Positions 5,647-27,210 of a DNA stretch of 64,000 nt are shown here, piece after piece. The notes under the pieces were generated by a model that was not told the DNA's origin, ran no database searches, and saw only the letters and a program-made list of their open reading frames with translations. This stretch comes from an uncultured Burkholderiales bacterium. Lineage in GTDB: Bacteria > Pseudomonadota > Gammaproteobacteria > Burkholderiales > Burkholderiaceae_C. The stretch covers positions 24,017 to 88,016 of the forward strand of contig CAIVLE010000088.1 in NCBI GenBank assembly GCA_903906635.1, written 5' to 3'. The position numbers were made by a program, and so were the translations under genes. The number at the start of each line of letters is the position of its first letter. Positions within the stretch are counted from its first letter, which is position 1.

Positions 5647-6621
5647 ATGAACACACGACAGTTTTTGGCGGCACTTTTGGGTGCCGCTTCTTTTTGGGGG
5701 GGCTGGGTTGCATCAGCGGCCGAGCCTTTTGCGACGCGCCCCGTCAAGTTATTGATCGGCTTTGCGCCGGGCGGCAGCTCCGACACGGTGGCACGCATCA
5801 TGGCGCCTCGCATGGGCGAGTTGCTCAAGCAGTCGGTGGTGATTGAAAACCGCCCAGGTGCAGGCGGCAACATCGCCTCGGAGCAATTGGTCAAGGCCCC
5901 CGCTGACGGTTACACCATCATGCTGGGCACCATTGGTTCATTGGCGGTGAACCAGCACATCAACAAGCTCAGCTACAACCCCGTCACTGACATGCAGGCT
6001 TTGAGCATGGCCATCGTGTTTCCTAACGTTTTGGTGGTCAATGCCAACAGCGACATTCGCTCGCTTGACGACTATGTGCGCCAAGGCAAAGCCGAGCGCT
6101 CGCGCGTGTCCTTTGGCTCTTCGGGCATTGGCAGTGCAGGGCACTTGGCCGGTGAGTTGTTCAAGGCCACGGCCAACCTCAACAACCAGCATGTGGCTTA
6201 CAGGGGGGGCGCACCTGCCATGAATGATTTGTTAGGCGGGGTGCTGCCCTCGATCTTCTCCAGCCCCACCGATGCCATGCAGTTCATCCAAAACGGCAAG
6301 CTGCGCCCGCTGGCCGTGACCAGTGCCAAACGCATGGACGTGTTGCCCAATGTGCCCACCATTGCCGAGTTGGGCTATGCTGGGTTTGAGGCCGTTAACT
6401 GGTACGCCTTCACCGCACCTTTGCGCACCCCCCCAGAGGTGGTCAAGCGTTTGAACGAGGTGATCACCGCCACCTTGAACGATCCGCATGTGGCCGCGCA
6501 GCTGCGCAAAATGGGATTGGTTCCTACACCCACCTCCCCCGAAGACGCAGCGCGCTACATGCGCTTGGAGAGCGAGAAGTGGGGCGCAATTGTGCGCAGT
6601 GCAGGCATTCACGGAGATTGA
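5647..6621 (+). CDS. Tripartite tricarboxylate transporter substrate-binding protein (Bug/TctC family)
   Basis: RPVKLLIGFAPGGSSDTVAR...VVIENRPGAGGNIASE; ATG at 5647 in frame with listed ORF 5161..6621. Confidence 0.92.
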   Translation: MNTRQFLAALLGAASFWGGWVASAAEPFATRPVKLLIGFAPGGSSDTVARIMAPRMGELLKQSVVIENRPGAGGNIASEQLVKAPADGYTIMLGTIGSLAVNQHINKLSYNPVTDMQALSMAIVFPNVLVVNANSDIRSLDDYVRQGKAERSRVSFGSSGIGSAGHLAGELFKATANLNNQHVAYRGGAPAMNDLLGGVLPSIFSSPTDAMQFIQNGKLRPLAVTSAKRMDVLPNVPTIAELGYAGFEAVNWYAFTAPLRTPPEVVKRLNEVITATLNDPHVAAQLRKMGLVPTPTSPEDAARYMRLESEKWGAIVRSAGIHGD

Positions 6622-6622
6622 T

Positions 6623-7906
6623 ATGAGCGCCACGATGGCTGAAAAAATACTGGCCCAACGTTCGGGCCAAACCCAGGTGCACGCGGGCGACATCGTCGTG
6701 GCGCACGTGGATTACGCGATGGTGCACGACGCCCGCGCGCCCAACGCCATTCGCATGGTTGAGAAGATGCACGCCAAGTTGCCCTTTGCCTCCAAGACCG
6801 CATGGGTGCTGGACCATTACTCTCCACCGCCAACGTTAGAGGCAGCGCAAGGCCACAGTGCCATGCGCCGTTTTGCCAAAGAGCACGGCAGCCAGCTCTA
6901 CGACATTGGTGAGGGCATATGCCACCAGGTGTTGCCCGAAGGTGGCCACCTGACCTGTGGTGACTTGGTGGTGGGCACCGACACCCACTCGGTCACCTAT
7001 GGCGCATTCAACGCGTTTGGCACCGGCATTGAAGGCACCGACGTGAGCGCTGTGATGGCCACCGGCAAAGTGTGGCTGCGTGTGCCCGAGTCGGTGCGCG
7101 TCACCCTCAACGGGCGTTTGCAACCCGGTGTCTGGGCCAAAGACCTCACGCTGTACATGTTGGGTCGCTTTGGAGCGGAGGGCTTGAACTACCGCGCCAT
7201 CGAGTACGTGGGCTCGGCCGTGAGCGCGATGGAAATTGACGACCGCATGACCCTGGCCAACCACGCCGCCGAACTCGGCGCCAAGGCTGCGCTTCTTGAA
7301 GCCGATGACAAAACCTTCGCTTGGTTGGCGGCGCACGGTGCGCGTGCACCTCAGCCTGTGTTGGCCGATGCCGACGCGGTGTATGCCGATCGCTTGGACA
7401 TTGACGCCTCGCAGCTCGCGCCGCAAGTAGCGCGCAAGCATGCGGTGGACGACGTGGTGGCGGCCCAAGAGGTGATTGGTCAAAAAATCAACTTCGCCTT
7501 GATTGGCACCTGCACCAACGGACGCTTGGATGACATGCGCCAAGCCGCTGCCATTTTGAAAGGCCGTCGTTTGGCCTCGGGCGTGCGCATGATCATCACC
7601 CCAGCATCGCGCCAAATCTACTTGGCAGCTTTGCGTGAAGGCCTGATCGAAACTTTGACCGAAGCCGGCGCGTCCGTAGAGGCCGCAGGCTGTGGCACCT
7701 GCGTGGGCATCACCAACCATTTGATCCCGGGCGACCGCGAGGTGGTGATCTCCACGGCCAACCGTAACTTCCAAGGCCGCTTGGGTAATCACGAGGCCGA
7801 GATCTGGCTGGGCTCGGCGGCCACCGTGGCCGCATCTGCCTTGACCGGGCGCATCACCGATCCGCGCACCGTCGAAGGCGGGCAATGGGAGGCCAGCCAT
7901 GTCTGA
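6623..7906 (+). CDS. 3-isopropylmalate dehydratase large subunit-like (aconitase superfamily) hydratase
   Basis: GTDTHSVTYGAFNAFGTGIEGTDVSAVMATGKVWLRVPES; Fe-S cysteines GTCTNGR and GCGTCVG; followed by LeuD-like subunit. Confidence 0.9.
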   Translation: MSATMAEKILAQRSGQTQVHAGDIVVAHVDYAMVHDARAPNAIRMVEKMHAKLPFASKTAWVLDHYSPPPTLEAAQGHSAMRRFAKEHGSQLYDIGEGICHQVLPEGGHLTCGDLVVGTDTHSVTYGAFNAFGTGIEGTDVSAVMATGKVWLRVPESVRVTLNGRLQPGVWAKDLTLYMLGRFGAEGLNYRAIEYVGSAVSAMEIDDRMTLANHAAELGAKAALLEADDKTFAWLAAHGARAPQPVLADADAVYADRLDIDASQLAPQVARKHAVDDVVAAQEVIGQKINFALIGTCTNGRLDDMRQAAAILKGRRLASGVRMIITPASRQIYLAALREGLIETLTEAGASVEAAGCGTCVGITNHLIPGDREVVISTANRNFQGRLGNHEAEIWLGSAATVAASALTGRITDPRTVEGGQWEASHV

Positions 7907-8423
7907 GCAGTTGATTCAAACCACCGCCTGGGTGCTGGGAGATGATGTCAACACCGACCTCAATTGCTCGGGCAAATACCTGCCAGGCAAAGACGAGGCC
8001 TACATCGCGGCCCACGCCTTTGAAGCCCTCGATCCGAGTTTTGTGCAACGCTTCAAGTCGGGCGACATCATCGTGGCGGGCACCCACTTTGGCATCAACT
8101 CCTCACGCGAGCAGGCGGTGCACATCTTGCGTCGCATGGGCGTGGCGGCCATCGTGGCACCGTCCTTTGGGCGTCAGTTTTTCCGCAACGCCATCAACAA
8201 CGGACTGTTGGTGTTGGAGTGCGACACCCGCGGTTGGCCCAACGGCTCCTCAGTGCGCTTGGACCTGCAAGTCCACACCTTTGAAGTCCTCTCCAGCGAC
8301 GCCTCTCAGGCGCCTATCGTGCGTAGTTTCAGGGCATTACCCGACGCCATCTTGGCCATCTTGCGCGAGGGCGGCTTGATTCCATTCTTGAAAAAATACC
8401 CCAATTGGGAAGTCCCCGCATGA
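7899..8423 (+). CDS. 3-isopropylmalate dehydratase small subunit-like (LeuD-like) hydratase
   Basis: LGDDVNTDLNCSGKYL...GTHFGINSSREQAVHILRRMGVAAIVAPSFGRQFFRNAINNGLLVLE. Confidence 0.9.
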   Translation: MSEQLIQTTAWVLGDDVNTDLNCSGKYLPGKDEAYIAAHAFEALDPSFVQRFKSGDIIVAGTHFGINSSREQAVHILRRMGVAAIVAPSFGRQFFRNAINNGLLVLECDTRGWPNGSSVRLDLQVHTFEVLSSDASQAPIVRSFRALPDAILAILREGGLIPFLKKYPNWEVPA

Positions 8424-9334
8424 GCAGCACCTCTCGCACCTTAGGCCGCGTTGCGCGCATTCGACAAGCCTTTCAAGAGCGCTTAGGCAGCGTCAAACAG
8501 CGCGCTTTGGTCGCCCCCGGCATCTACGACGGCTATGGCGCGCGACTGGTGGCCCAAGCCGGATTTGAAGCCGCTTATATGACGGGCAACGGCGTGTCGG
8601 CCTGTTTGCTGGGGCGCCCCGATGTGGGGCTGATTGATTTGACACAAATGGCCAACCACGCCCGCAACGTCGCGGCTTGCATGGATTTGCCGCTGATTTG
8701 TGACGCCGACACCGGCTATGGCGGTATCGTGGCTTTGCAGCGCACGGTGGCCGAGTTTGAGGCCGCAGGTGTGGCGGCTATTCACATCGAAGACCAATGC
8801 TCGCCCAAGCGTTGCGCCCAGTTGCCTGGCGCGCGCACGGTGCTGCCGTTTGACGAGGCTGTGGCCAAAATTGCCGCCGCCGTTGCCGCGCGCCATGACC
8901 CTGACTTCATGGTGATTGGGCGCACCGACAGCGCAGCCTCGATGGGCTTGGACGAGGCCATTCGCCGCGCCCAAGCTTTTGCACAGGCAGGAGCCGGGGC
9001 CGTGTTTGTCGAGCTCAAAGGGCACGCGGGCATCTTGGCCGACATTGGCCGCGTTGCAGATCTCGTGCCCGTGCCCTGTGTGGTCAACATCGACGCCGGG
9101 GGCGCACTGGCCGACCTGAGGTCCGAGCACTTGCACACCCACGGCATTGGCGTGGCGATCTACCCTGGCATGATTCGCAACGCCGTGGGTTTTGCCATGC
9201 GCGAAGCCTTGGGGCTCCTCCAGCGCGACGGCAGCACCGCCCAGGTGCGCCCTCGCATGCTGTCTTCGCGCGAGTACAACGACGTGTTGGGCTTGCCCGA
9301 TGTAGAGGCGTGGGAACAGCGCTTCGACCTTTAA
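8420..9334 (+). CDS. PEP mutase/isocitrate lyase superfamily C-C lyase (2-methylisocitrate/2,3-dimethylmalate lyase-like)
   Basis: CDADTGYGG and EDQCSPKRCA motifs; ATGA overlap with preceding stop. Confidence 0.88.
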   Translation: MSSTSRTLGRVARIRQAFQERLGSVKQRALVAPGIYDGYGARLVAQAGFEAAYMTGNGVSACLLGRPDVGLIDLTQMANHARNVAACMDLPLICDADTGYGGIVALQRTVAEFEAAGVAAIHIEDQCSPKRCAQLPGARTVLPFDEAVAKIAAAVAARHDPDFMVIGRTDSAASMGLDEAIRRAQAFAQAGAGAVFVELKGHAGILADIGRVADLVPVPCVVNIDAGGALADLRSEHLHTHGIGVAIYPGMIRNAVGFAMREALGLLQRDGSTAQVRPRMLSSREYNDVLGLPDVEAWEQRFDL

Positions 9335-14587: not shown

Positions 14588-15505
14588 TCATCGCGTCTGA
14601 GCCAACAAGGCCTGGCTCACCACCTCTTGCGTGACCCGCTGTGCGGCTTTGTGGGTGGTGGTCATGGGACGCCGAGCCGACCACACCAGCATGAGTTGAC
14701 TCAACAACTGAGGGCGCTCGATGCGGTGGGTGCTGAAGTCTTTGGGCTGGGCAAAGTTGCTCAGGGTGTAAGCGGGCAGCACGGCATAGCCCAAGCCCTC
14801 TTTGACCAACTCCAAGATCGCATTCAAGCCATCGATCTCCAGCACGATGTGGGGCTTGCGGTTGAGGCGTTGCATTTCGGTGTCGATCAGCAAACGAAAA
14901 GCGTTGGGGCGGCTGGGCAAGATCAGCGGTAAATCAAACAGCGCTGACAAGGCCACCTTGGGCCGCAGCACGGCACCCTCGAGCTTGGCTTTTTTGCCCG
15001 CAATCAAAATCAAGGCGTCTTCGTGGAGCACCTTCATCTCCAAATCGGGTGCCGGTGGCGGGTTGTAGAGCACGGCCATGTCCAACTGGCCAGCGCGCAA
15101 GCTCTCCAACATGGGCACAGAAAATCCTTCGGTCAGCGACAACTGCGACTGCGGCAATTGGTCACGAAACGACAACGTCAAGGGCACGGTGATGAGCTTG
15201 GACAGACTGGGCGGCAGCCCAATCGATACACGCCCTGTGAGGGCACCTCGCACCGAGGCCAACTCTTCTTGTGCCACTGTGACTTGGTGCAAGATGCCGC
15301 GCCCGTGCTCGAGCATCACTTGGCCAGCCTGCGTCACCGTGACGCCACGCCCATTGCGCAGCAGCAGGTTTTGGCGCAACTGCACCTCCAGCTGGCGCAC
15401 ATGGCGGCTCAACAAGGGCTGCGGCAGCCCCAGCGCAATGGCGGCTTTGGTGAAACTGCCGAGCTCGGCCACACGGACAAAGGATTCGATTTGCTTGAGT
15501 TCCAT
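14588..15505 (-). CDS. LysR family transcriptional regulator
   Basis: MELKQIESFVRVAELGSFTKAAIALGLPQPLLSRHVRQLE winged HTH; divergent from the next cluster. Confidence 0.92.
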   Translation of the reverse strand: MELKQIESFVRVAELGSFTKAAIALGLPQPLLSRHVRQLEVQLRQNLLLRNGRGVTVTQAGQVMLEHGRGILHQVTVAQEELASVRGALTGRVSIGLPPSLSKLITVPLTLSFRDQLPQSQLSLTEGFSVPMLESLRAGQLDMAVLYNPPPAPDLEMKVLHEDALILIAGKKAKLEGAVLRPKVALSALFDLPLILPSRPNAFRLLIDTEMQRLNRKPHIVLEIDGLNAILELVKEGLGYAVLPAYTLSNFAQPKDFSTHRIERPQLLSQLMLVWSARRPMTTTHKAAQRVTQEVVSQALLAQTR

Positions 15506-15626
15506 GAATTTTTAGAAAAATGAATATCCTATTGTCTGTTATCTAAATTCGTTATATCAGCTAGTTCTCCCCAAGACCTTTGACATGACGGCCCAAACAG
15601 GGGGGAGGTCTCTAGAATCCAACCCC

Positions 15627-16343
15627 ATGCAAACCCAAACCTCCCCCTTTGTGCTGCGTGGTATTTCTTCCATGGCCACCAAAGCCATCTTGGCCGATTT
15701 GACCCAGGCCTACCAAGACCAAACTGGCGTGCAGGTTCAGATCGAGTCGCTGGGTGGGGTGGACGCGGCCAAGCGTGTGCAAGCTGGCGAAGCCTTGGAT
15801 GTGGTGTTGTTGGCCTCGGACGCGATAGAGCGCTTGATGGCCTCCGGGCATTTGCTGGCCAACAGCCGCTGTGACTGGGTGCGCTCACCCGTGGCCATCG
15901 CGGTGCGTGCTGGCGCTGCGCATCCAGACGTCACCACAGAGGCGGCGCTCAAAGCCGCTGTGCTGGCCAGCTCAAGCCTGGGGTTTTCTACCGGACCAAG
16001 CGGCACCTATCTGAACCAATTGCTGGCGCGTTGGGGCATCGCCGAGCAGGTCCAGCCGCGCATGGTGGTCCCGCCTCCTGGCACCCCCGTGGGCACTTTG
16101 GTGGCTCGCGGTGAGGTGGCTCTTGGTTTTCAGCAGCTCAGCGAATTGATCGCCTTGCCCGGCATTGAGGTGCTGGGGACTTTGCCACAGGAGGTGGCCT
16201 ACATCACCACGTTCTCAGGCGCTATTGCGCAAGTGATTGGCCACGACGCGACACGCGTCAAAGCGGTGCAGGCGTTTTTGTCGTTTTTGGCGTCTGGCGA
16301 TGTCTTAGACGTCAAGCGTCGCCAAGGCATGGACTGGAACTGA
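15627..16343 (+). CDS. ModA-like periplasmic-binding-fold protein without a recognisable signal peptide
   Basis: ATKAILADLTQAYQDQTGVQVQIESLGGVDAAKRVQAGEALDVVLLASDAIERL; no hydrophobic leader at any in-frame start. Confidence 0.75.
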   Translation: MQTQTSPFVLRGISSMATKAILADLTQAYQDQTGVQVQIESLGGVDAAKRVQAGEALDVVLLASDAIERLMASGHLLANSRCDWVRSPVAIAVRAGAAHPDVTTEAALKAAVLASSSLGFSTGPSGTYLNQLLARWGIAEQVQPRMVVPPPGTPVGTLVARGEVALGFQQLSELIALPGIEVLGTLPQEVAYITTFSGAIAQVIGHDATRVKAVQAFLSFLASGDVLDVKRRQGMDWN

Positions 16344-16391: not shown

Positions 16392-17426
16392 ATGTCCCTC
16401 ATCATCGACGTCCACGGTCACTACACCACCGCGCCCAAGGCGCTCGAGGAGTGGCGCAACCGCCAAATTGCAGGGATCAAAGACCCTGCCTCCAAGCCCA
16501 AGGTGTCTGAGCTGAAAATCAGCGACGATGAACTGCGCGAGTCCATTGAGACCAACCAACTCGCCAAGATGAAAGAGCGCGGCTCAGACATCACCATCTT
16601 CAGTCCACGTGCGAGCTTCATGGCGCATCACATCGGTGACTTTGAGGTGTCTTCCACCTGGGCCGCCATTTGCAATGAGCTGTGCTTTCGCGTCTCGCAA
16701 CTCTTTCCAAATAACTTTGTGCCTGCAGCCATGTTGCCCCAGTCGCCCGGTGTGGACCCTGCCACTTGCATTCCTGAGTTGGTCAAGTGTGTCGAGCAGT
16801 ATGGCAACGTGGGCATCAACCTCAACCCCGATCCTTCGGGTGGTCACTGGACCTCACCGCCTTTGAGCGACAAGTCGTGGTACCCCATTTATGAAAAGAT
16901 GGTCGAGTACGACATTCCCGCCATGATCCACGTCTCCACCAGTTGCAACAACTGTTTCCACACCACCGGTGCGCATTACCTGAACGCGGACACCACCGCC
17001 TTCATGCAGTGCCTGACCAGCGACTTGTTCAAAGACTTTCCTACCTTGAAGTTTTTGATTCCCCATGGCGGTGGCGCCGTGCCCTACCACTGGGGACGTT
17101 TCCGTGGCCTGGCGCAAGAGTTGAAGAAGCCCTTGCTGTCCGAGCACTTGCTCAACAACATCTTTTTCGACACCTGCGTCTACCACCAACCCGGCATAGA
17201 CTTGTTGACCAAGGTGATTCCCGTCAAAAACATCATGTTCGCCTCAGAAATGATCGGTGCGGTGCGTGGCATCGACCCCGAAACCGGCCACTATTTTGAC
17301 GACACCAAGCGCTACATCGAGTCCACCGTCAACTTGAATGCCGAAGAACGCCACCAAGTCTACGAAGGCAACGCACGCCGGGTGTTTTCGCGCTTAGACA
17401 GCCAACTCAAGGCCCAAGGCCGTTGA
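16392..17426 (+). CDS. ligJ: 4-oxalomesaconate hydratase (amidohydrolase family, LigJ/PmdE-like)
   Basis: MSLIIDVHGHYTTAPKALEEWRNRQIAGIKDP; PCA 4,5-cleavage context. Confidence 0.9.
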   Translation: MSLIIDVHGHYTTAPKALEEWRNRQIAGIKDPASKPKVSELKISDDELRESIETNQLAKMKERGSDITIFSPRASFMAHHIGDFEVSSTWAAICNELCFRVSQLFPNNFVPAAMLPQSPGVDPATCIPELVKCVEQYGNVGINLNPDPSGGHWTSPPLSDKSWYPIYEKMVEYDIPAMIHVSTSCNNCFHTTGAHYLNADTTAFMQCLTSDLFKDFPTLKFLIPHGGGAVPYHWGRFRGLAQELKKPLLSEHLLNNIFFDTCVYHQPGIDLLTKVIPVKNIMFASEMIGAVRGIDPETGHYFDDTKRYIESTVNLNAEERHQVYEGNARRVFSRLDSQLKAQGR

Positions 17427-17447: not shown

Positions 17448-18131
17448 ATGTACGAACTCGGCGTTGTTTACCGCAACATCTCACGCGCTGATCGCGCCAC
17501 CACAGACAGCTTGGCCTCCTTGGGCTCTGCCACGGTTCACGAAGCCATGGGCCGTGTGGGTTTGATGAAACCCTACATGCGCCCCATTTACCCGGGTGCA
17601 CAGGTCTCGGGCACCGCAGTGACGGTCTTGTTGCACCCCGGTGACAACTGGATGATGCACGTGGTGGCCGAGCAAATTCAGCCAGGCGACATCGTGGTCG
17701 CGGCCATCACGGCCGAATGCACCGATGGTTACTTTGGTGACCTGTTGGCTACCTCCTTCATGGCCCGTGGTGCACGCGCTTTGGTGATCGACGCGGGTGT
17801 GCGCGATGTGAAAGAACTCACCAAAATGGGTTTTCCGGCCTGGAGCAAAGCCATCAGCAGCAAGGGCACCATCAAGGCCACCATTGGCTCGGTCAACATC
17901 CCCTTGGTATGCGCTGGCATGATCGTGCACCCTGGTGACGTGATCGTGGCTGATGATGACGGCGTGGTGTGTGTGCCTCAAGCGCTGGCCGCCAAAACAC
18001 TCGCCACGGCACAAGCGCGTGAGGCCAACGAAGGAGAAAAACGCGCCAAACTCGCTTCGGGCGTGTTGGGCTTGGACATGTACAAAATGCGCGAACCCCT
18101 GGCGGCGGCTGGTTTGAAATACATCGACTGA
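17448..18131 (+). CDS. ligK: 4-carboxy-4-hydroxy-2-oxoadipate aldolase (LigK/PmdF-like, RraA fold)
   Basis: [18 protein letters not shown]...[25 protein letters not shown]...CVPQ. Confidence 0.92.
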
Positions 18132-18143
18132 TTGGCCAGGCCC

Positions 18144-18986
18144 ATGCGCACACTTCACCTTATGTCATGGCCCTGGTTGCTGGCAGTCTTGATGGCTTTG
18201 GGTGGGTGCGTGCGCACCTGGGAAACGGGGGGGGCGTCCTCCAGAGTTGCCCCCGCGTTTTCGCAAGTCGCACCCGAGGTGCAACAGGCCTTGGCCCCCA
18301 CCGGCGTGCTGCGAGTGGGGGTGTATTCGGGCAGTCCCACCTCTTGGGTTCGAGACACACACTCCGGGGCGACCTATGGGGTGGCGTTCGAATTAGGCCA
18401 TGCTTTGGGGCAGGCGCTGGGTGTGCCGGTTCAGGTGGTGACGTATCCGCGCGTGGCCGAAGTGATTGAGGGGCTCAAACGTTTTGAGGTGGACATGACG
18501 TTCACCAATGCCACCGCCGCGCGCGCCAAAGTCGTGGACTTTACCCCCGTCATGGTTCAACTCGAGCTCGGCGTGCTGGTGCCAGCCCACAGCGCGATCA
18601 CCCGTTTTGCCGATGTCGACCGCGCAGGCGTGCGTTTGGGCGTGAGCCAGGGTAGTTCATCTCAAGGCGTGTTGGGTGAACGCATAAAGCTTGCCCGCTT
18701 GCTGCCCATCCCCTCGTTGGATGTGGCGCAGCAAATGCTGCAGCGCGGTGAATTGGATGCCTTCGCCACCAACAAGGGCATCTTGTTTGAACTGTCTGAA
18801 ACAGTGCCTGGATCGCAAGTTCTCAAGGACCGCTGGGGGGTGGAGAATTTGGCCATTGCGATTCCCAAAGGGCGCGAGGCGGGCCGAGCCTATCTGAACG
18901 ACTTTGCCCAAGCGCGGGTGCGCGAGGGCGATGTCAAACGCATGTCCGAGCGCGCAGGTTTGCGTGGTTTGGCACAAACCCCATGA
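18144..18986 (+). CDS. Extracellular solute-binding protein family 3, predicted lipoprotein
   Basis: Lipobox LGGC; LRVGVYSGSPTSWVRD...YGVAFELGHALGQALGVPVQVV...DVDMTFTNATAARA. Confidence 0.85.
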   Translation: MRTLHLMSWPWLLAVLMALGGCVRTWETGGASSRVAPAFSQVAPEVQQALAPTGVLRVGVYSGSPTSWVRDTHSGATYGVAFELGHALGQALGVPVQVVTYPRVAEVIEGLKRFEVDMTFTNATAARAKVVDFTPVMVQLELGVLVPAHSAITRFADVDRAGVRLGVSQGSSSQGVLGERIKLARLLPIPSLDVAQQMLQRGELDAFATNKGILFELSETVPGSQVLKDRWGVENLAIAIPKGREAGRAYLNDFAQARVREGDVKRMSERAGLRGLAQTP

Positions 18987-19002
18987 CAACACAAGGACAA
19001 CT

Positions 19003-19968
19003 ATGAAATACGTCACCCGTTGGAGCTCACTGCTTTGGATGTGCCTTGCCGCAGGTCAGGTTTTTGCGCAGTCCTACCCCAGCAAACCCATCAAAGTGGT
19101 GGTGGGCTATGCCGCAGGCGGAGCGGTCGATGTGGTGGCGCGCACCATCGGGCAGAGCCTGTCCTCGAGTATGGGTCAACCCGTGTTGGTGGAAAACAAA
19201 CCTGGTGCGGGCACCAACATTGCCGTCAAGTCGGTGATCGGTGCCGAACCCGATGGCTACACCTTGATGATGGCCGCCAACGCCTTGGCCGCCAACATGG
19301 CGCTGTACCAACCCATGCCCTTTGATGCCGAGCGCGACTTGGTGCCCGTGTCTTTGATCGGTCGCGTGCCCGTGGTCATTGCAGCCAACCCGAACGTGGC
19401 GTACGCCACGGTGAAGCAACTGATTGACGCGGCCAAGGGCAAGCCCAATAGCATTGCCTTTGGCTCGCCGGGCAATGGCTCGACCCCGCACATGGCGATT
19501 GAGTTGTTTGCACGCGCCGCAGGCATAGACTTGCAGCATGTGCCTTATCGGGGGGGATCGCCCGCCATCACCGACGCCATTGGCGGACAAATTCCCTTGG
19601 TGGCCGTTAACGCCTTGGAGGTGTTGCCCCATGCCAAGAGCGGCAAGCTCAAGGTGCTGGCAGTGCTCAGCCCCAACCGCAGTCCGATTTTTCCGGACGT
19701 GCCCACCATTGCAGAGTCTGGCTTTGCTGGCTTTGAAGCCTCGGTGTGGTACGGATTGGTGGCCCCCATTGCCACGCCCAAACCCATCGTGGCCAAGTTG
19801 CACGACGAGGTGCAAAAAGCCCTGCAAACCAAAGAGGTGCGCGATCGCATGAACGCCGTGGGCGGCGAAGTTGTGCCCGGCAGCGCTGAAATGTTTGCCA
19901 ACCTCATCCACTCTGAGCGTCAGCGCTACACCAAGCTGGTGAGAGAAGCCAACATACAACCTGATTGA
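19003..19968 (+). CDS. Tripartite tricarboxylate transporter substrate-binding protein (Bug/TctC family)
   Basis: YPSKPIKVVVGYAAGGAVDVVAR...VLVENKPGAGTNIA; ATG 19003 in frame with ORF 18904..19968. Confidence 0.92.
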   Translation: MKYVTRWSSLLWMCLAAGQVFAQSYPSKPIKVVVGYAAGGAVDVVARTIGQSLSSSMGQPVLVENKPGAGTNIAVKSVIGAEPDGYTLMMAANALAANMALYQPMPFDAERDLVPVSLIGRVPVVIAANPNVAYATVKQLIDAAKGKPNSIAFGSPGNGSTPHMAIELFARAAGIDLQHVPYRGGSPAITDAIGGQIPLVAVNALEVLPHAKSGKLKVLAVLSPNRSPIFPDVPTIAESGFAGFEASVWYGLVAPIATPKPIVAKLHDEVQKALQTKEVRDRMNAVGGEVVPGSAEMFANLIHSERQRYTKLVREANIQPD

Positions 19969-19985: not shown

Positions 19986-20903
19986 ATGGAATTTCAAAAG
20001 ACCCCCGGCTGGCTCGACTGGTACAACGGCCCCAGCCAACCCACTTTCAAATTGCCCGCAGGCGCTGTGGATGCCCATTGCCACGTGTTTGGTCCCGGCG
20101 CTGAGTTCCCGTATGCGCCCGAGCGCAAATACACCCCTTGCGATGCATCGAAAGACCAGTTGTATGCGCTGCGCGACCACCTGGGGTTTGCGCGCAACGT
20201 GGTGGTGCAAGCCACTTGTCACGGTGCAGACAATCGCGCCATGCTCGATGCCTTGGTCCACTCGGGTGGCAAAGCGCGTGGCGTGGCCACGGTCAAGCGC
20301 AGTGTGAGCGACGCCGAGTTGCAAGCCATGCACGATGTGGGGGTGCGTGGTGTGCGCTTTAACTTTGTCAAACGGTTGGTCGACTTCACACCCAAAGACG
20401 AGTTGCTCGAAATTGCCGCTCGTGTTGCCAAATGGGGTTGGCATGTCGTGATTTATTTTGAAGCGGTGGACCTGCCTGAGTTGTGGGACTTCTTCACCGC
20501 ATTGCCCACCACCGTGGTGGTCGACCACATGGGTCGACCCGATGTGACCAAGCCCGTGGATGGGCCTGAGTTTGAGTTGTTTGTGAAGTACATGCGAGAG
20601 CACCCCAACGTGTGGTGCAAGGTGACATGCCCCGAGCGTCTGACGGCAGCCGGTCCAAAAGCCTTGAATGGCGAGCAAAACGCCTACCAAGATGTGGTGC
20701 CGTTTGCCAAACGCATCGTAGACACCTTCCCCGATCGCGTGATTTGGGGTACCGACTGGCCCCACCCCAACTTGAAAGACCACATGCCCGATGACGGTTT
20801 GTTGGTGGATTTCATTCCGCACATCGCCCCCACACCAGCCCAACAAAAACAGCTGCTGGTGGACAACCCGATGCGCTTGTACTGGCCTGAAGAGGTGGCA
20901 TAA
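19986..20903 (+). CDS. ligI: 2-pyrone-4,6-dicarboxylate lactonase (LigI/PmdD-like)
   Basis: AGAVDAHCHVFGPGAEFPYAPERKYTPCDASKDQL; HMGRPDV; WGTDWPHPN. Confidence 0.93.
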   Translation: MEFQKTPGWLDWYNGPSQPTFKLPAGAVDAHCHVFGPGAEFPYAPERKYTPCDASKDQLYALRDHLGFARNVVVQATCHGADNRAMLDALVHSGGKARGVATVKRSVSDAELQAMHDVGVRGVRFNFVKRLVDFTPKDELLEIAARVAKWGWHVVIYFEAVDLPELWDFFTALPTTVVVDHMGRPDVTKPVDGPEFELFVKYMREHPNVWCKVTCPERLTAAGPKALNGEQNAYQDVVPFAKRIVDTFPDRVIWGTDWPHPNLKDHMPDDGLLVDFIPHIAPTPAQQKQLLVDNPMRLYWPEEVA

Positions 20904-22224
<1,321 letters not shown>

Positions 22225-22241: not shown

Positions 22242-23198
22242 ATGAGCAAAACCATCAAAGTCGCCTTGGCGGGCGCAGGTGCATTTGGCATCAAACATTT
22301 GGACGGCATCAAAAACATCGATGGCGTGGAAGTGGTCTCGTTGATCGGTCGTGAGCTGGACAAAACCAAAGAAGTGGCCAGCAAATATGGCATCGGCCAT
22401 GTCACCACCGATTTGGCCGACAGCTTGGCCTTGCCCGAAGTGGACGCAGTGATTTTGTGCACACCCACCCAAATGCACGCTTCACAAAGCCTGGCTTGCT
22501 TGAAAGCTGGCAAGCATGTACAAGTGGAAATTCCCATGGCTGACAGCTGGAAAGATGCGGACGAGGTGGTGCGCGTGGCCAAAGAAACAGGCTTGGTGGC
22601 CATGTGTGGCCACACCCGTCGCTTCAACCCCAGCCACCAGTGGGTCCACCACAAAATCAAGGCCGGTGAATTCAACATCCAGCAAATGGATGTGCAAACG
22701 TATTTCTTTCGCCGCACCAACATGAATGCGCTGGGCCAAGCCCGCAGCTGGACCGACCACTTGCTGTGGCACCACGCTGCCCACACCGTGGACTTGTTCG
22801 CCTATCAAGCAGGCAGTCCAATTGTCAAAGCCAATGCAGTGCAAGGCCCGATTCACCCGACCCTGGGGATTGCCATGGACATGAGCATTCAGCTCCAAGC
22901 CGCCAACGGTGCCATCTGTACCTTGAGCTTGTCGTTCAACAACGACGGCCCTTTGGGGACTTACTTTCGCTACATCGGTGACACGGGCACTTACTTGGCA
23001 CGTTATGACGATTTGTTCACGGGCAAAGAAGAGCAGATCGACGTGTCCCAAGTGGCCGTGTCGATGAACGGCATTGAGTTGCAAGACCGCGAGTTTTTCT
23101 CTGCCATCCAAGAAGGCCGTGAGCCCAACAGCAGCGTGGCCCAGGTGTTGCCTTGCTACAAGGTGCTGCACGAGCTTGAATTGCAACTGAACGCTTGA
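22242..23198 (+). CDS. ligC: 4-carboxy-2-hydroxymuconate-6-semialdehyde dehydrogenase (LigC/PmdC-like, Gfo/Idh/MocA)
   Basis: KVALAGAGAFGIKHLDGIKNIDGVEVVSLIGRE...CTPTQMHA...CGHTRRFNPSHQWVH. Confidence 0.92.
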   Translation: MSKTIKVALAGAGAFGIKHLDGIKNIDGVEVVSLIGRELDKTKEVASKYGIGHVTTDLADSLALPEVDAVILCTPTQMHASQSLACLKAGKHVQVEIPMADSWKDADEVVRVAKETGLVAMCGHTRRFNPSHQWVHHKIKAGEFNIQQMDVQTYFFRRTNMNALGQARSWTDHLLWHHAAHTVDLFAYQAGSPIVKANAVQGPIHPTLGIAMDMSIQLQAANGAICTLSLSFNNDGPLGTYFRYIGDTGTYLARYDDLFTGKEEQIDVSQVAVSMNGIELQDREFFSAIQEGREPNSSVAQVLPCYKVLHELELQLNA

Positions 23199-23218: not shown

Positions 23219-24226
23219 ATGCAACAACGCCAGATTGGACCTTTCTCCGTTTCAGCCATTGGCCTGGGCTGCATGAACCTGAGCCACGCCTACGCTGCGC
23301 CGCCGACCCCCGAGGTGGCCAGCGCAGTTTTGCACCGTGCGCTGGACTTGGGGTGCACGCTGTTTGACACGGCTGCCCTGTATGGGTTTGGCGCCAACGA
23401 AACGCTGGTGGGCAAGGTGCTCAAGGCGCACCGCCAGCAGATCACGCTGTGCAGCAAAGGCGGCATGGCGGGCGTCACGTTCCCTGATGGCGTCAAGCGT
23501 GTGATTGATGGACGGCCTGAAGCCATCCGACAAAACTGTGAAGACAGTTTGACTCGCTTGGGCACCGATGTGATCGATGTGTACTACCTGCACCGCTGGG
23601 ATAAAAAGGTACCCATTGAAGACAGCGTAGGCGCCATGAGCGACTTGGTGCGTGCTGGCAAGGTGCGCAGCATTGGGTTGAGCGAGGTGTCAGCCACCAC
23701 ACTGCGCAAAGCACACGCGGTGCACCCCATCGCGGCGGTGCAAACCGAGTATTCGCTGTGGACACGCAACCCTGAAATTGCGGTGCTGCAAACGTGTCGT
23801 GAACTGGGCGTTACCTTTGTGCCTTTTAGTCCCGTGGCGCGTGGTTTTATATGCGGCGAATTGCGCGAAGAAAGCGGCTTGGCCGCCAACGACATTCGCC
23901 GTGCCATGCCCCGTTTTGCGCCTGAGACGTATGCCGCCAATGTGAAGCTGCTGGACGCTTACCTAGCTTTGGCGCGTGAGCTGGGATGCACGCCCGCGCA
24001 ACTGGCACTGGCGTGGTTGTTGCACAAAGACAGCACCTTGATTCCTATTCCCGGCACACAAAATATGGGTCATTTGCAAGACAACCTGGCGGCCTCAGCG
24101 GTGGTGCTCTCACCACAACACATGCACCGGCTGGAGGCTTTGATCAACACCCAGACCGTCAAAGGTTTGCGCTACAACGCGCAGAACATGACGGAAGTCG
24201 ACACCGAAGAATTTTTCACGGCCTAA
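23219..24226 (+). CDS. Aldo/keto reductase
   Basis: SVSAIGLGCMNLSHAYA...LGCTLFDTAALYGFGANETLVGK...DVYYLHRWD. Confidence 0.92.
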   Translation: MQQRQIGPFSVSAIGLGCMNLSHAYAAPPTPEVASAVLHRALDLGCTLFDTAALYGFGANETLVGKVLKAHRQQITLCSKGGMAGVTFPDGVKRVIDGRPEAIRQNCEDSLTRLGTDVIDVYYLHRWDKKVPIEDSVGAMSDLVRAGKVRSIGLSEVSATTLRKAHAVHPIAAVQTEYSLWTRNPEIAVLQTCRELGVTFVPFSPVARGFICGELREESGLAANDIRRAMPRFAPETYAANVKLLDAYLALARELGCTPAQLALAWLLHKDSTLIPIPGTQNMGHLQDNLAASAVVLSPQHMHRLEALINTQTVKGLRYNAQNMTEVDTEEFFTA

Positions 24227-24244: not shown

Positions 24245-25234
24245 TCAGTCAATGGTGACGCCGCCGTTTTTGATGACTTGACGCCAGCGCTCGGTGTCTT
24301 CTCGCATCCATTGCGCCATCTCCTCAGGGGTATTGCCCACAGGCTCTGCGCCGGCTTCTGCAAAGCGGCGTGCAACATCGGGGCTGCGCAAAACTTCGGC
24401 CAGGGCGGTCGATAACTTTTGTGCAATGGCGGTGGGTGTTTTGGGTGGGGCGACCACGGCAAACCAAGTCACCGCAATGACTCCTGGCACGATTTCTTGC
24501 ATAGCAGGAATCTGGGGCAACTGGCTTTGACGCTTGCTGCTGGTGACGGCCAACATCTTGAGCTTGCCGCTGCGCAGGTGAGAGCTCGCTTGTGAGACGT
24601 TGCCAAACATGAGGTGCACATGACCGGCCAATAAGTCGGCCATCGCAGGTGCGTCGCCTTTGTAGGGCACGTGCACCATGCGCACGCCTGTTTTTTGTCT
24701 GAACATCTCCGCCGTCAAATGCGAGGTCGAGCCATTGCCTTGGGAGGCGTAGCTCAGCTTGTCAGGATTGGCCTTGGCGTATTGGATCAACTCTTGCACG
24801 GTGTTGACGGGGACCGAAGGGTGAACCATCAGCGCGTTGGGCACCATGCACAAGATGGTGATGGGCGTGAACTTGGCCGGGTCGTAATTGATTTTCGGGT
24901 ACAGGCTCACGTTGATAGACAAGGAGGGCGGGGGGGCCGCCATCAAGGTGTAGCCATCGGGTTCTGCGTTGTAGAGGTACTCCGCTGCGATGTTGCCTGC
25001 AGCGCCGGGCTTGTTGTCAACCACGACGACTTGTCCGAGCTTGGCTCCCAAGCCCTCTGCGACCCAGCGCGGAAACATGTCTGCCGAGCCCCCCGCTGGG
25101 TTGGGGACCCAGAGTTTGATGCTCTTGCTCGGCCATACAGCAGCCGTTTGCGCCGCTGCGGGCTGGGCTGCCATGGGCAGCGCCAATGCCAGTGTGTAAC
25201 TCAGAAAATCGCGTCGTTGCGGTCTGTTGGCCAT
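24245..25234 (-). CDS. Tripartite tricarboxylate transporter substrate-binding protein (Bug/TctC family)
   Basis: WPSKSIKLWVPNPAGGSADMFPR...VVVDNKPGAAGNIAAEY; signal peptide. Confidence 0.92.
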   Translation of the reverse strand: MANRPQRRDFLSYTLALALPMAAQPAAAQTAAVWPSKSIKLWVPNPAGGSADMFPRWVAEGLGAKLGQVVVVDNKPGAAGNIAAEYLYNAEPDGYTLMAAPPPSLSINVSLYPKINYDPAKFTPITILCMVPNALMVHPSVPVNTVQELIQYAKANPDKLSYASQGNGSTSHLTAEMFRQKTGVRMVHVPYKGDAPAMADLLAGHVHLMFGNVSQASSHLRSGKLKMLAVTSSKRQSQLPQIPAMQEIVPGVIAVTWFAVVAPPKTPTAIAQKLSTALAEVLRSPDVARRFAEAGAEPVGNTPEEMAQWMREDTERWRQVIKNGGVTID

Positions 25235-25253
25235 GGTGGAGTTCTTCTACACA

Positions 25254-25736
25254 TCAAAGGGGGATGACAAGCAAGGTTTCCACGATGCGCGAATCGTAGA
25301 CAAATCTGCGGCTTTTGAATTTGGGGCCCTCGGGCGTGATGACCACCTCATCTTGGCATTGCCCCGTTGAGAAGACTTTCATGTCGCCGTCCAACTCCAT
25401 GGTGCGTATCACCAAAAAGTTCGAGCGCACCTGCAGCACGTCGCCATCTTGCCCCACGATTTGCACACCCGAGATGATGTGTCGGTAATGATGGGGTTGG
25501 TAAATGTTGGCAATGCGCATGGACAAGATGCGGTCTCTCAGCTGCGCTGCGCTGTGGGCGTCAATGATGGCCATAGGCAGCTGCCGGTCACGGTTGAACT
25601 TGGACTGCACGGTGTAGCGCCCATCGTCTAGCAGCAACTGGGTGACGGCCTCGACCTGATCTTCATCAATCAGACGCGCCCACTCGTAGATCAGGTTTTC
25701 AACGGCGCGATGGTGTGATTCAGCGTACATCTTCAT
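25254..25736 (-). CDS. Aromatic-ring-hydroxylating dioxygenase beta subunit (TphA3/AndAd-like)
   Basis: DRILSMRIANIYQPHHYRHIISG...DSRIVETLLVIPL; ATGA overlap with alpha subunit stop. Confidence 0.85.
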   Translation of the reverse strand: MKMYAESHHRAVENLIYEWARLIDEDQVEAVTQLLLDDGRYTVQSKFNRDRQLPMAIIDAHSAAQLRDRILSMRIANIYQPHHYRHIISGVQIVGQDGDVLQVRSNFLVIRTMELDGDMKVFSTGQCQDEVVITPEGPKFKSRRFVYDSRIVETLLVIPL

Positions 25737-27034
25737 GCCAGCCCCATGTCGTTGCGGTAGTTGTGCCAAAAGTTTCGGATGGCTCTTTCCGAGAGTTTGC
25801 TGCTGCCGCCACTGACCAAGTCTTTGCCACCCATTTCAATGAATGACTCGCCACTTTCGCCATCGGCCATGGCCTTTTGCATCATCTCGCACACGGCGGC
25901 GTCTTCAACCGAAATCATGCCCGCAGAGCCTGCCAGGTTGGCTTGAGTCAGACGCACTTGGGTGGTGGCCTCGTCGTCGTCTTCAAATCCAAAATAAGTC
26001 CATACCAAATCGCATTGACCAGGTCCTTTGGGCAAGAGTTGTCGGGTGGCCAAGCTGTTGGCAATTTGGTGCAACACAAAGGAGGGGTAGGCGGTCAAAA
26101 TTTGAACGCTGACTCCGTCCCCATATTCATCTCGCCACTTCAAGATGCTGGGGTCTTCCAGCTTCAAACCGTCGTTGTGCGAGCGCAGGTCGGAGGCTGT
26201 TTTATCAAAGTCTGTGGAGGTTTTTTCAGTGCCGGCCTTGGTATAAAAGTACACATGTCGCCCGCTCGCGTCCAAGGTCATGCCGGACTCTTGGGATTGC
26301 CGAGACAAGCCAAACGTGCCGTAGAAGGTGTGCAAGATGTTGGCGTGGTAGGAGTCTCGTGGGTTCTCGTGGTAAGCCTTCCAGTTGGCATGGATGCGTT
26401 GTGTGTCATAGCCCAACACTTTGAGCGGCTTGTGGAGCACGCGGCGAATGCCATGTGCTACGTCGCCCAACCAGTCTTGCAGAGCAGGCGTGTCGTCGCT
26501 GAAGCTTGCGAAAACCAAGCCACAAATTGTCTCGACCCGCAATTTGCGCAAGCCGTGCTCACTGTTTTTGAAATCTTTGGGCAGGCCGCCTTCTCCGCGA
26601 AGGCCGTGGGCAAATGCGGCGTGCGTCAAGTCGCCTTTGAGGTTGTAGTTCCAGGCGTGGTAGACGCAGTAGAGTTTTTTGGCTTTGCCAAAGGCCTCGC
26701 GACACACCATGTTGCCGCGGTGAGCGCAGCGGTTAAGCACAGCATGCAAAGAGCCGTCCTCCGCGCGGGTCAGCACCACCGATTGCTCACCAATGTAGGT
26801 GGTTTTGAAGCTGCCGGCTTCGGGTACCTCGGCTTCTAAGCCAAGATAGTTCCAAGTTTTCCCTTGGAAAATGCGGACCTGCTCTTGGGCATAAATGTCT
26901 GGGTCGGTGTAGATCCAGTAGGGGGCACGGCTGCTGCCCTCGGCGGGCCACTTGCGCTCATGCTTGGGTGCCGGGGAGGGGGAGGGGGAGGCGGGCACGA
27001 TGGGAATGGTGGTCTTGGCGTCTTGAGGGCACAT
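25733..27034 (-). CDS. Rieske-type aromatic-ring-hydroxylating dioxygenase alpha subunit (TphA2/AndAc-like clade)
   Basis: Rieske CAHRG...CVYHAW; mononuclear iron region NPRDSYHANILHTFYG; N-terminal start uncertain (27034 or 27103). Confidence 0.88.
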   Translation of the reverse strand: MCPQDAKTTIPIVPASPSPSPAPKHERKWPAEGSSRAPYWIYTDPDIYAQEQVRIFQGKTWNYLGLEAEVPEAGSFKTTYIGEQSVVLTRAEDGSLHAVLNRCAHRGNMVCREAFGKAKKLYCVYHAWNYNLKGDLTHAAFAHGLRGEGGLPKDFKNSEHGLRKLRVETICGLVFASFSDDTPALQDWLGDVAHGIRRVLHKPLKVLGYDTQRIHANWKAYHENPRDSYHANILHTFYGTFGLSRQSQESGMTLDASGRHVYFYTKAGTEKTSTDFDKTASDLRSHNDGLKLEDPSILKWRDEYGDGVSVQILTAYPSFVLHQIANSLATRQLLPKGPGQCDLVWTYFGFEDDDEATTQVRLTQANLAGSAGMISVEDAAVCEMMQKAMADGESGESFIEMGGKDLVSGGSSKLSERAIRNFWHNYRNDMGLA

Positions 27035-27210
27035 GCTGCGTTGCGTCAGAAATAAAGTTGACAAAAGATACACGCCACGCTGCAGCTCATGTGTCTTGCA
27101 CACGACTTTGAACGCACTGGGGATGTCAGAAAAGTCACAGCTGCGGTCGCTTAAGATTGGGTGTTGTGAATTTCACTTCTTTACCCGTCAACCAACGTAA
27201 CAAAGACACC

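Follow-up and report, generated by a model that had tools for sequence, protein, structure and literature searches.

The open reading frame at positions 15627–16343 of the window, which is the whole 64,000-nucleotide stretch of Burkholderiales DNA analysed here, probably encodes a non-orthologous 4-oxalomesaconate (OMA) isomerase/tautomerase that evolved from a periplasmic binding protein. We put the probability of this reading, which was reached by sequence comparison, at roughly three in four. The protein encoded there and its orthologues are called X throughout. X heads a lig cluster for protocatechuate (PCA) 4,5-cleavage in which, with the pathway steps taken as in PMC12314914, the tautomerase/isomerase is the sole step on the route from OMA to pyruvate/oxaloacetate without an enzyme. 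Since X occupies the slot of the tautomerase and never shares a cluster with one, it is most likely a second form of this enzyme. We found no prior assignment of X as an enzyme in the open literature.

The genes are arranged in the order X-LigJ-LigK-SBP3-TctC-LigI-LigA-LigB-LigC-aldo/keto reductase, with a LysR gene upstream on the other strand; the identities of LigI, LigC and the aldo/keto reductase are based on gene order and Pfam family. X is separated from LigJ by 48 bp, in agreement with the original prediction, which had placed it just upstream of ligJ/ligK at the head of the cluster.

14588–15505, minus strand: LysR-type regulator, divergent; flanks most clusters headed by X and most of those headed by an OMA tautomerase
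15627–16343, plus strand: X, signal-less SBP_bac_11 protein (predicted ModA fold), 238 aa; candidate 4-oxalomesaconate isomerase/tautomerase
16392–17426, plus strand: LigJ/PmdE-type OMA (KCH) hydratase, amidohydrolase family (PF04909)
17448–18131, plus strand: LigK (TIGR02798, 405.8 bits, cut-off 304.5)
18132–18986, plus strand: SBP_bac_3 family binding protein, variable operon insert (PF00497)
18994–19968, plus strand: TctC-type binding protein, tripartite tricarboxylate transporter family (PF03401)
19986–20903, plus strand: LigI/PmdD-type 2-pyrone-4,6-dicarboxylate hydrolase (PF04909, cluster position)
20904–21344, plus strand: LigA, protocatechuate 4,5-dioxygenase alpha (TIGR02792, 235 bits, cut-off 108.6)
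21346–22224, plus strand: LigB (NF009903, 575 bits, cut-off 317)
22242–23198, plus strand: LigC/PmdC-type CHMS dehydrogenase, Gfo/Idh/MocA (PF19858, PF01408)
23222–24226, plus strand: aldo/keto reductase, often last in the cluster (PF00248; same position in relatives)

The SBP_bac_3 insert is often missing in relatives or swapped for TctC, and LigJ is 70% identical to the protein at the pcmD position of Arthrobacter keyseri 12B.

The X reading frame is real and comprises 238 codons followed by the stop; the length of 239 aa given earlier resulted from counting the stop. A second in-frame ATG is found upstream at 15585, and comparison with orthologues supports 15627 as the probable start. In every orthologue read the SSMAT motif (strand 1/helix 1) is located only 4–24 residues past the chosen start, leaving no space for a signal peptide, as had been proposed for the window protein. 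X matches PF13531 (SBP_bac_11) over residues 13–235 with 137.5 bits (Pfam gathering score 25), and profile scans yielded no match to PF04303 or NF033377. The AF2 model has a mean pLDDT of 96.2; in the PDB it matches ModA proteins best (1AMF, 4KD5 and 8K8L, TM 0.74–0.81), and the predicted fold is the ModA fold of the type II periplasmic-binding group.

We searched a family sample of 151 genomes with X, LigJ and PF04303, accepting X at a score of at least 165 bits and LigJ at an identity of at least 70%. X was detected in 75 of the 89 genomes with LigJ and in 2 of the 62 without it (Fisher p = 1.4e-25). As to the conservation of the ModA-like/ligJ adjacency, which had been suggested as a check, X directly precedes LigJ on the same strand in 59 genomes, with a median gap of 58 bp. 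A PF04303 gene takes this place in 8 of the 151 genomes, and X is absent from all eight (X versus slot tautomerase within LigJ genomes, p = 4e-8); X and an OMA tautomerase were found together at the head position in none of the 151. The neighborhoods are otherwise alike, with LysR, head gene, LigJ, LigK and mostly also LigI, LigA, LigB and LigC. Among the eight tautomerase-headed clusters, one is cut by a contig end and in that of G140 nothing but LigJ, LigK and a LigB-like gene is seen. Four of the eight displacing proteins were scanned and all passed NF033377 ('4-oxalomesaconate tautomerase', cut-off 440) with 508–529 bits, including that of G008 with 528.8 bits. LigU, GalD, PmdU and FldA (NF033377, PF04303, PrpF family) thus resemble X in operon slot, in co-occurrence with LigJ-LigK and presumably in reaction, whereas their fold and sequence are unrelated to those of X. 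A putative LigU/GalD-like working of X is supported by this replacement.

The same metabolite pool offers a different, unlikely role. X might catalyze the neighboring step, the keto/enol tautomerisation of 4-carboxy-2-hydroxymuconate to OMA, or assist LigJ, with no LigU-type allylic isomerisation. A keto/enol step before the allylic shift has been proposed for DesD and MgaD. Extra tautomerases of this kind exist, such as the SnoaL-like MgaD of Pseudomonas NGC7 (PMC12314914), and genomics is unable to separate such a step from the one proposed here. However, X stands exactly where the NF033377 OMA tautomerase stands in other clusters, and none of the X clusters retains such a gene; moreover the extra-step genes of NGC7 were described as non-essential (PMC12314914), whereas X is found almost throughout its group.

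Six LigJ genomes were scored as having neither head gene. Five of them contain an X that is divergent, beside LigJ/LigK (G017, G021), or broken by contig ends (G052, G108, G110); the sixth, G148, shows only TctC-LigJ-LigK. Stand-alone X genes in G020 and G111, where LigJ was not detected, speak against the isomerase reading. In some genomes, such as G088, an unlinked X lies next to unrelated genes and the lig cluster is headless, as would be expected of a diffusible enzyme. In G019 X accompanies LigI-LigA-LigB-LigC with LigJK elsewhere, and in G030 it accompanies LigK-LigI-LigA-LigB. OMA is the common denominator of these split and unlinked contexts and of the gallate clusters described below.

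The absence of a LigU/GalD-type tautomerase from the cluster, noted before from the window, extends to the whole source genome (G000; 262 contigs, 92.2% complete): a sequence search for a ligU/PrpF gene elsewhere in it revealed no PF04303 (PrpF/LigU/GalD) member. The same is true of a congener, G081 (single contig, 100% complete), which has the same X-headed cluster. In total 47 of the 75 X-genomes are devoid of any PF04303 protein, including the source genome and the single-contig genomes G081 and G092. The other 28 of the 75 hold some PF04303 member, and genome-wide exclusivity of X towards all PrpF proteins, which we had considered, is therefore not absolute; we limit the claim to the cluster slot and those 55 X-genomes that have no stand-alone OMA-tautomerase-like gene. 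A gene of this kind, which belongs to the PrpF family and typically adjoins TctC genes, is present in 20 of the 75 X-genomes, a point against the isomerase reading, and also in 4 of the 62 family genomes without LigJ. These genes (L101, L103, L104, L107 and those in 20 other family genomes) are unlinked to lig genes. Of five scanned, four passed the NF033377 cut-off, namely L101, L103, L104 and L107, which belong to the closest subgroup. The NF033377 equivalog may be too wide, and the stand-alone genes may act on a different substrate or be redundant.

In an order sample of 240 genomes, 13 further clusters have a tautomerase at or near LigJ and are devoid of X, and 8 more X genomes were found outside the family. 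Exceptions are G201, with X cut at a contig end, and G246 and G356, with LigJ and no other lig genes nearby. One genome also counts against X as the isomerase: the LigJ-K-I-A-B-C cluster of G160 is complete, yet contains no X and no OMA tautomerase. Between LigJ and LysR this cluster (L122) encodes a binding protein of the TAXI type, a probable TRAP permease, a member of the dienelactone hydrolase family and a homologue of 4,5-dihydroxyphthalate decarboxylase (9JP7). About 20 kb from its lig cluster, G160 also encodes a distant SBP_bac_11 protein without a signal peptide (L249), beside a molybdopterin-binding oxidoreductase. Outside the order, the LigJ genomes of the phylum mostly carry a tautomerase and not X. 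One of the genomes from outside the order, G569, has a LigJ-LigI-LigA-LigB cluster (L250) with 80–87% identity to the window, which suggests horizontal transfer; on another contig it carries an OMA-tautomerase-like gene (50%), and no X was found in it. Among 80 named GTDB loci, X is part of a lig cluster in 67, contig-cut beside LysR in 3 and stand-alone in 10, and the flanks read contain no tautomerase gene. A Comamonadaceae-type lig cluster was also seen on a MAG contig titled 'Cytophagales bacterium' (L209, JASGCK010000002.1), a title that is probably a mislabel.

The gallate pathway narrows the step further. The gallate cluster of Burkholderia multivorans consists of gallate dioxygenase-MFS-LigJ-LigK-X-tannase with neither LigI nor LigC, and the replicon carrying it has no PF04303 gene. 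G300 shows the same core, ring-cleavage enzyme-LigJ-LigK-X. A PCA- or PDC-specific role for X was rejected because X occurs in these clusters without LigC or LigI; the steps common to gallate and PCA clusters with X are those from OMA onward (OMA, LigJ, LigK). X is also found in actinobacteria, where it is the last gene of the pcm cluster on plasmid pRE1 of Arthrobacter keyseri 12B and of the pca cluster of Pseudarthrobacter Sphe3, where it overlaps its upstream neighbor by 4 bp; neither cluster contains ligU. Both proteins belong to the orthologous clade of X and are located in a pca/pcm cluster, although they come last and the window X comes first. The Sphe3 gene was published as pcaT (Asphe3_42410), an 'ABC-type molybdate transport system', in a cluster for which no ligU was named (PMC8431788). 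RT-PCR is reported to show the Sphe3 pathway genes as one transcriptional unit, which may extend to pcaT (PMC8431788).

Only slightly less probable than the general assignment is a more detailed one: X would be a true enzyme, a 1,3-allylic OMA isomerase/tautomerase that arose via signal-peptide loss and is the principal OMA isomerase in Comamonadaceae and their relatives, in gallate clusters of Burkholderia and on phthalate plasmids of Arthrobacter. A periplasmic SBP_bac_11 ancestor would have lost its signal peptide and been co-opted for PCA 4,5-cleavage and gallate breakdown. Cytosolic X would convert OMA, the product of ring cleavage or PDC hydrolysis, into the tautomer or double-bond isomer that is taken by LigJ, and would thereby be a non-orthologous replacement for LigU/GalD/PmdU. 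The cleft between the two lobes, which helix N-termini line, could hold the tricarboxylate, with S14-S15-M16-A17-T18, G43-G44-V45-D46, S121-T122-G123-P124-S125, V155 and Q169-Q170-E173 as putative cleft residues. Transfer of one proton would fall to a conserved acid/base, for which D46, as an X-specific candidate, is our guess. For X, the missing signal peptide, clade structure, co-occurrence, replacement in the slot and fold come from the data, whereas we infer that it is catalytic, which isomerisation it performs and which residues take part. S14, M16, T18, G43, G44, V45, D46, T122, P124, W136 and K230 are fixed in X and not in its paralogues, and several X-specific positions belong to the cleft-lining helix N-termini of the ModA-type fold. 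R50, D58, S125, Q169 and E173 are fixed in both.

In a maximum likelihood tree of 143 proteins, all X form one clade with support of 100/99, which takes in the divergent Arthrobacter, Methylobacterium and G017/G021 members. The clade is nested among mostly signal-peptide-bearing proteins, and its closest outgroups are mostly periplasmic. The periplasmic SBP_bac_11 paralogues (e.g. L091 and L263 of the source genome) are closest by sequence (33–43% identity) and have the R50/D58/S125/Q169/E173 core in common with X, yet most of them carry signal peptides and they possess neither SSMAT nor GGVD, W136 or K230. No lig linkage was seen in the paralogue loci read. On contig C211 of the source genome (L091, L092) a 48% LigJ paralogue lies about 16 kb from a signal-peptide-bearing X relative, together with several TctC genes. 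We rejected signal-lessness by itself as evidence of catalysis, because other signal-less SBP_bac_11 proteins adjoin unrelated genes (L243–L247, L249). L243–L247 (G418, G592, G577, G491 and G538) come from large genomes of a single genus in another part of the phylum, form a separate signal-less clade and adjoin a glutamine-synthetase-looking gene and small conserved proteins; they are possibly another cytosolic recruit of the SBP_bac_11 fold. MqnA, Thi5 and 4,5-dihydroxyphthalate decarboxylase are enzymes that evolved from solute-binding proteins, and we know of none from the ModA/SBP_bac_11 group. Cyclohexadienyl dehydratase is another precedent (PMC7683729). The known enzymes of such origin differ from X in binding-protein subfamily and in reaction.

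Two options had been put forward in the original prediction, a recruited isomerase and a cytosolic sensor. The former is favored by slot replacement, by the gallate clusters and by action in trans. The latter, in which X would sense a metabolite or act as a regulatory partner, for instance of LysR or LigJ, and be no enzyme, seems distinctly improbable. It would account for a ModA binding-protein fold without a signal peptide, and X diverges about as fast as LysR (median identity to orthologues 57% and 50%, compared with 81–85% for LigI/J/K/A/B/C), which is also a point against the isomerase reading. However, the divergent LysR is present with X and with the OMA tautomerase alike, so that X is no stand-in for the regulator; where X is absent an enzyme is present, and a Pfam scan found no DNA-binding or partner domain in X.

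Uptake of molybdate or another oxyanion, as annotated in current databases and literature ('pcaT, ABC-type molybdate transport'), has the ModA fold and distant ModA homology in its favor and is nevertheless barely credible, and we discarded it: by sequence, X lacks three tested ModA features, namely the equivalog cut-off (23.8 bits against 62.5 for TIGR01256, 23.2 against 253 for NF007958), a signal peptide (present in no X orthologue read) and transporter genes nearby (no ABC permease/ATPase, modBC, adjacent in the window cluster or in annotated homologous clusters). No molybdenum enzyme was identified in the window lig cluster by Pfam scan. ModA proteins (TIGR01256; 1AMF, 4KD5, 8K8L) have the fold of X but only 14–22% identity to it, and Ser39 and Tyr170, molybdate ligands of E. 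coli ModA, align with Gly and Gln of X.

The tautomerase step looks missing in many PCA 4,5-cleavage clusters of Comamonadaceae and Arthrobacter, where a 'molybdate transport' gene stands instead. Should X be the enzyme, this would close a pathway gap in major environmental degraders of lignin and plasticisers and correct the annotation of many genomes. X would then also be of use in PDC/lignin engineering as a short, soluble enzyme, and would be a clear natural example of a transport protein turned isomerase, with living signal-peptide-bearing relatives for comparison.

Two further regions of the window were noted. On the minus strand at 24245–27103, convergent with the lig cluster, a TctC protein is encoded together with a ring-hydroxylating dioxygenase pair that is AndAc/AndAd-like, yet far below the AndAc/AndAd cut-offs; the pair may feed an aromatic acid into the lig cluster. 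At 6488–9334 on the plus strand, homoaconitase/isopropylmalate-dehydratase-like large and small subunits are followed by a PrpB-like lyase, which scores below its equivalog cut-off, and are preceded by a TctC-like gene; the region looks like a tricarboxylate breakdown cluster.
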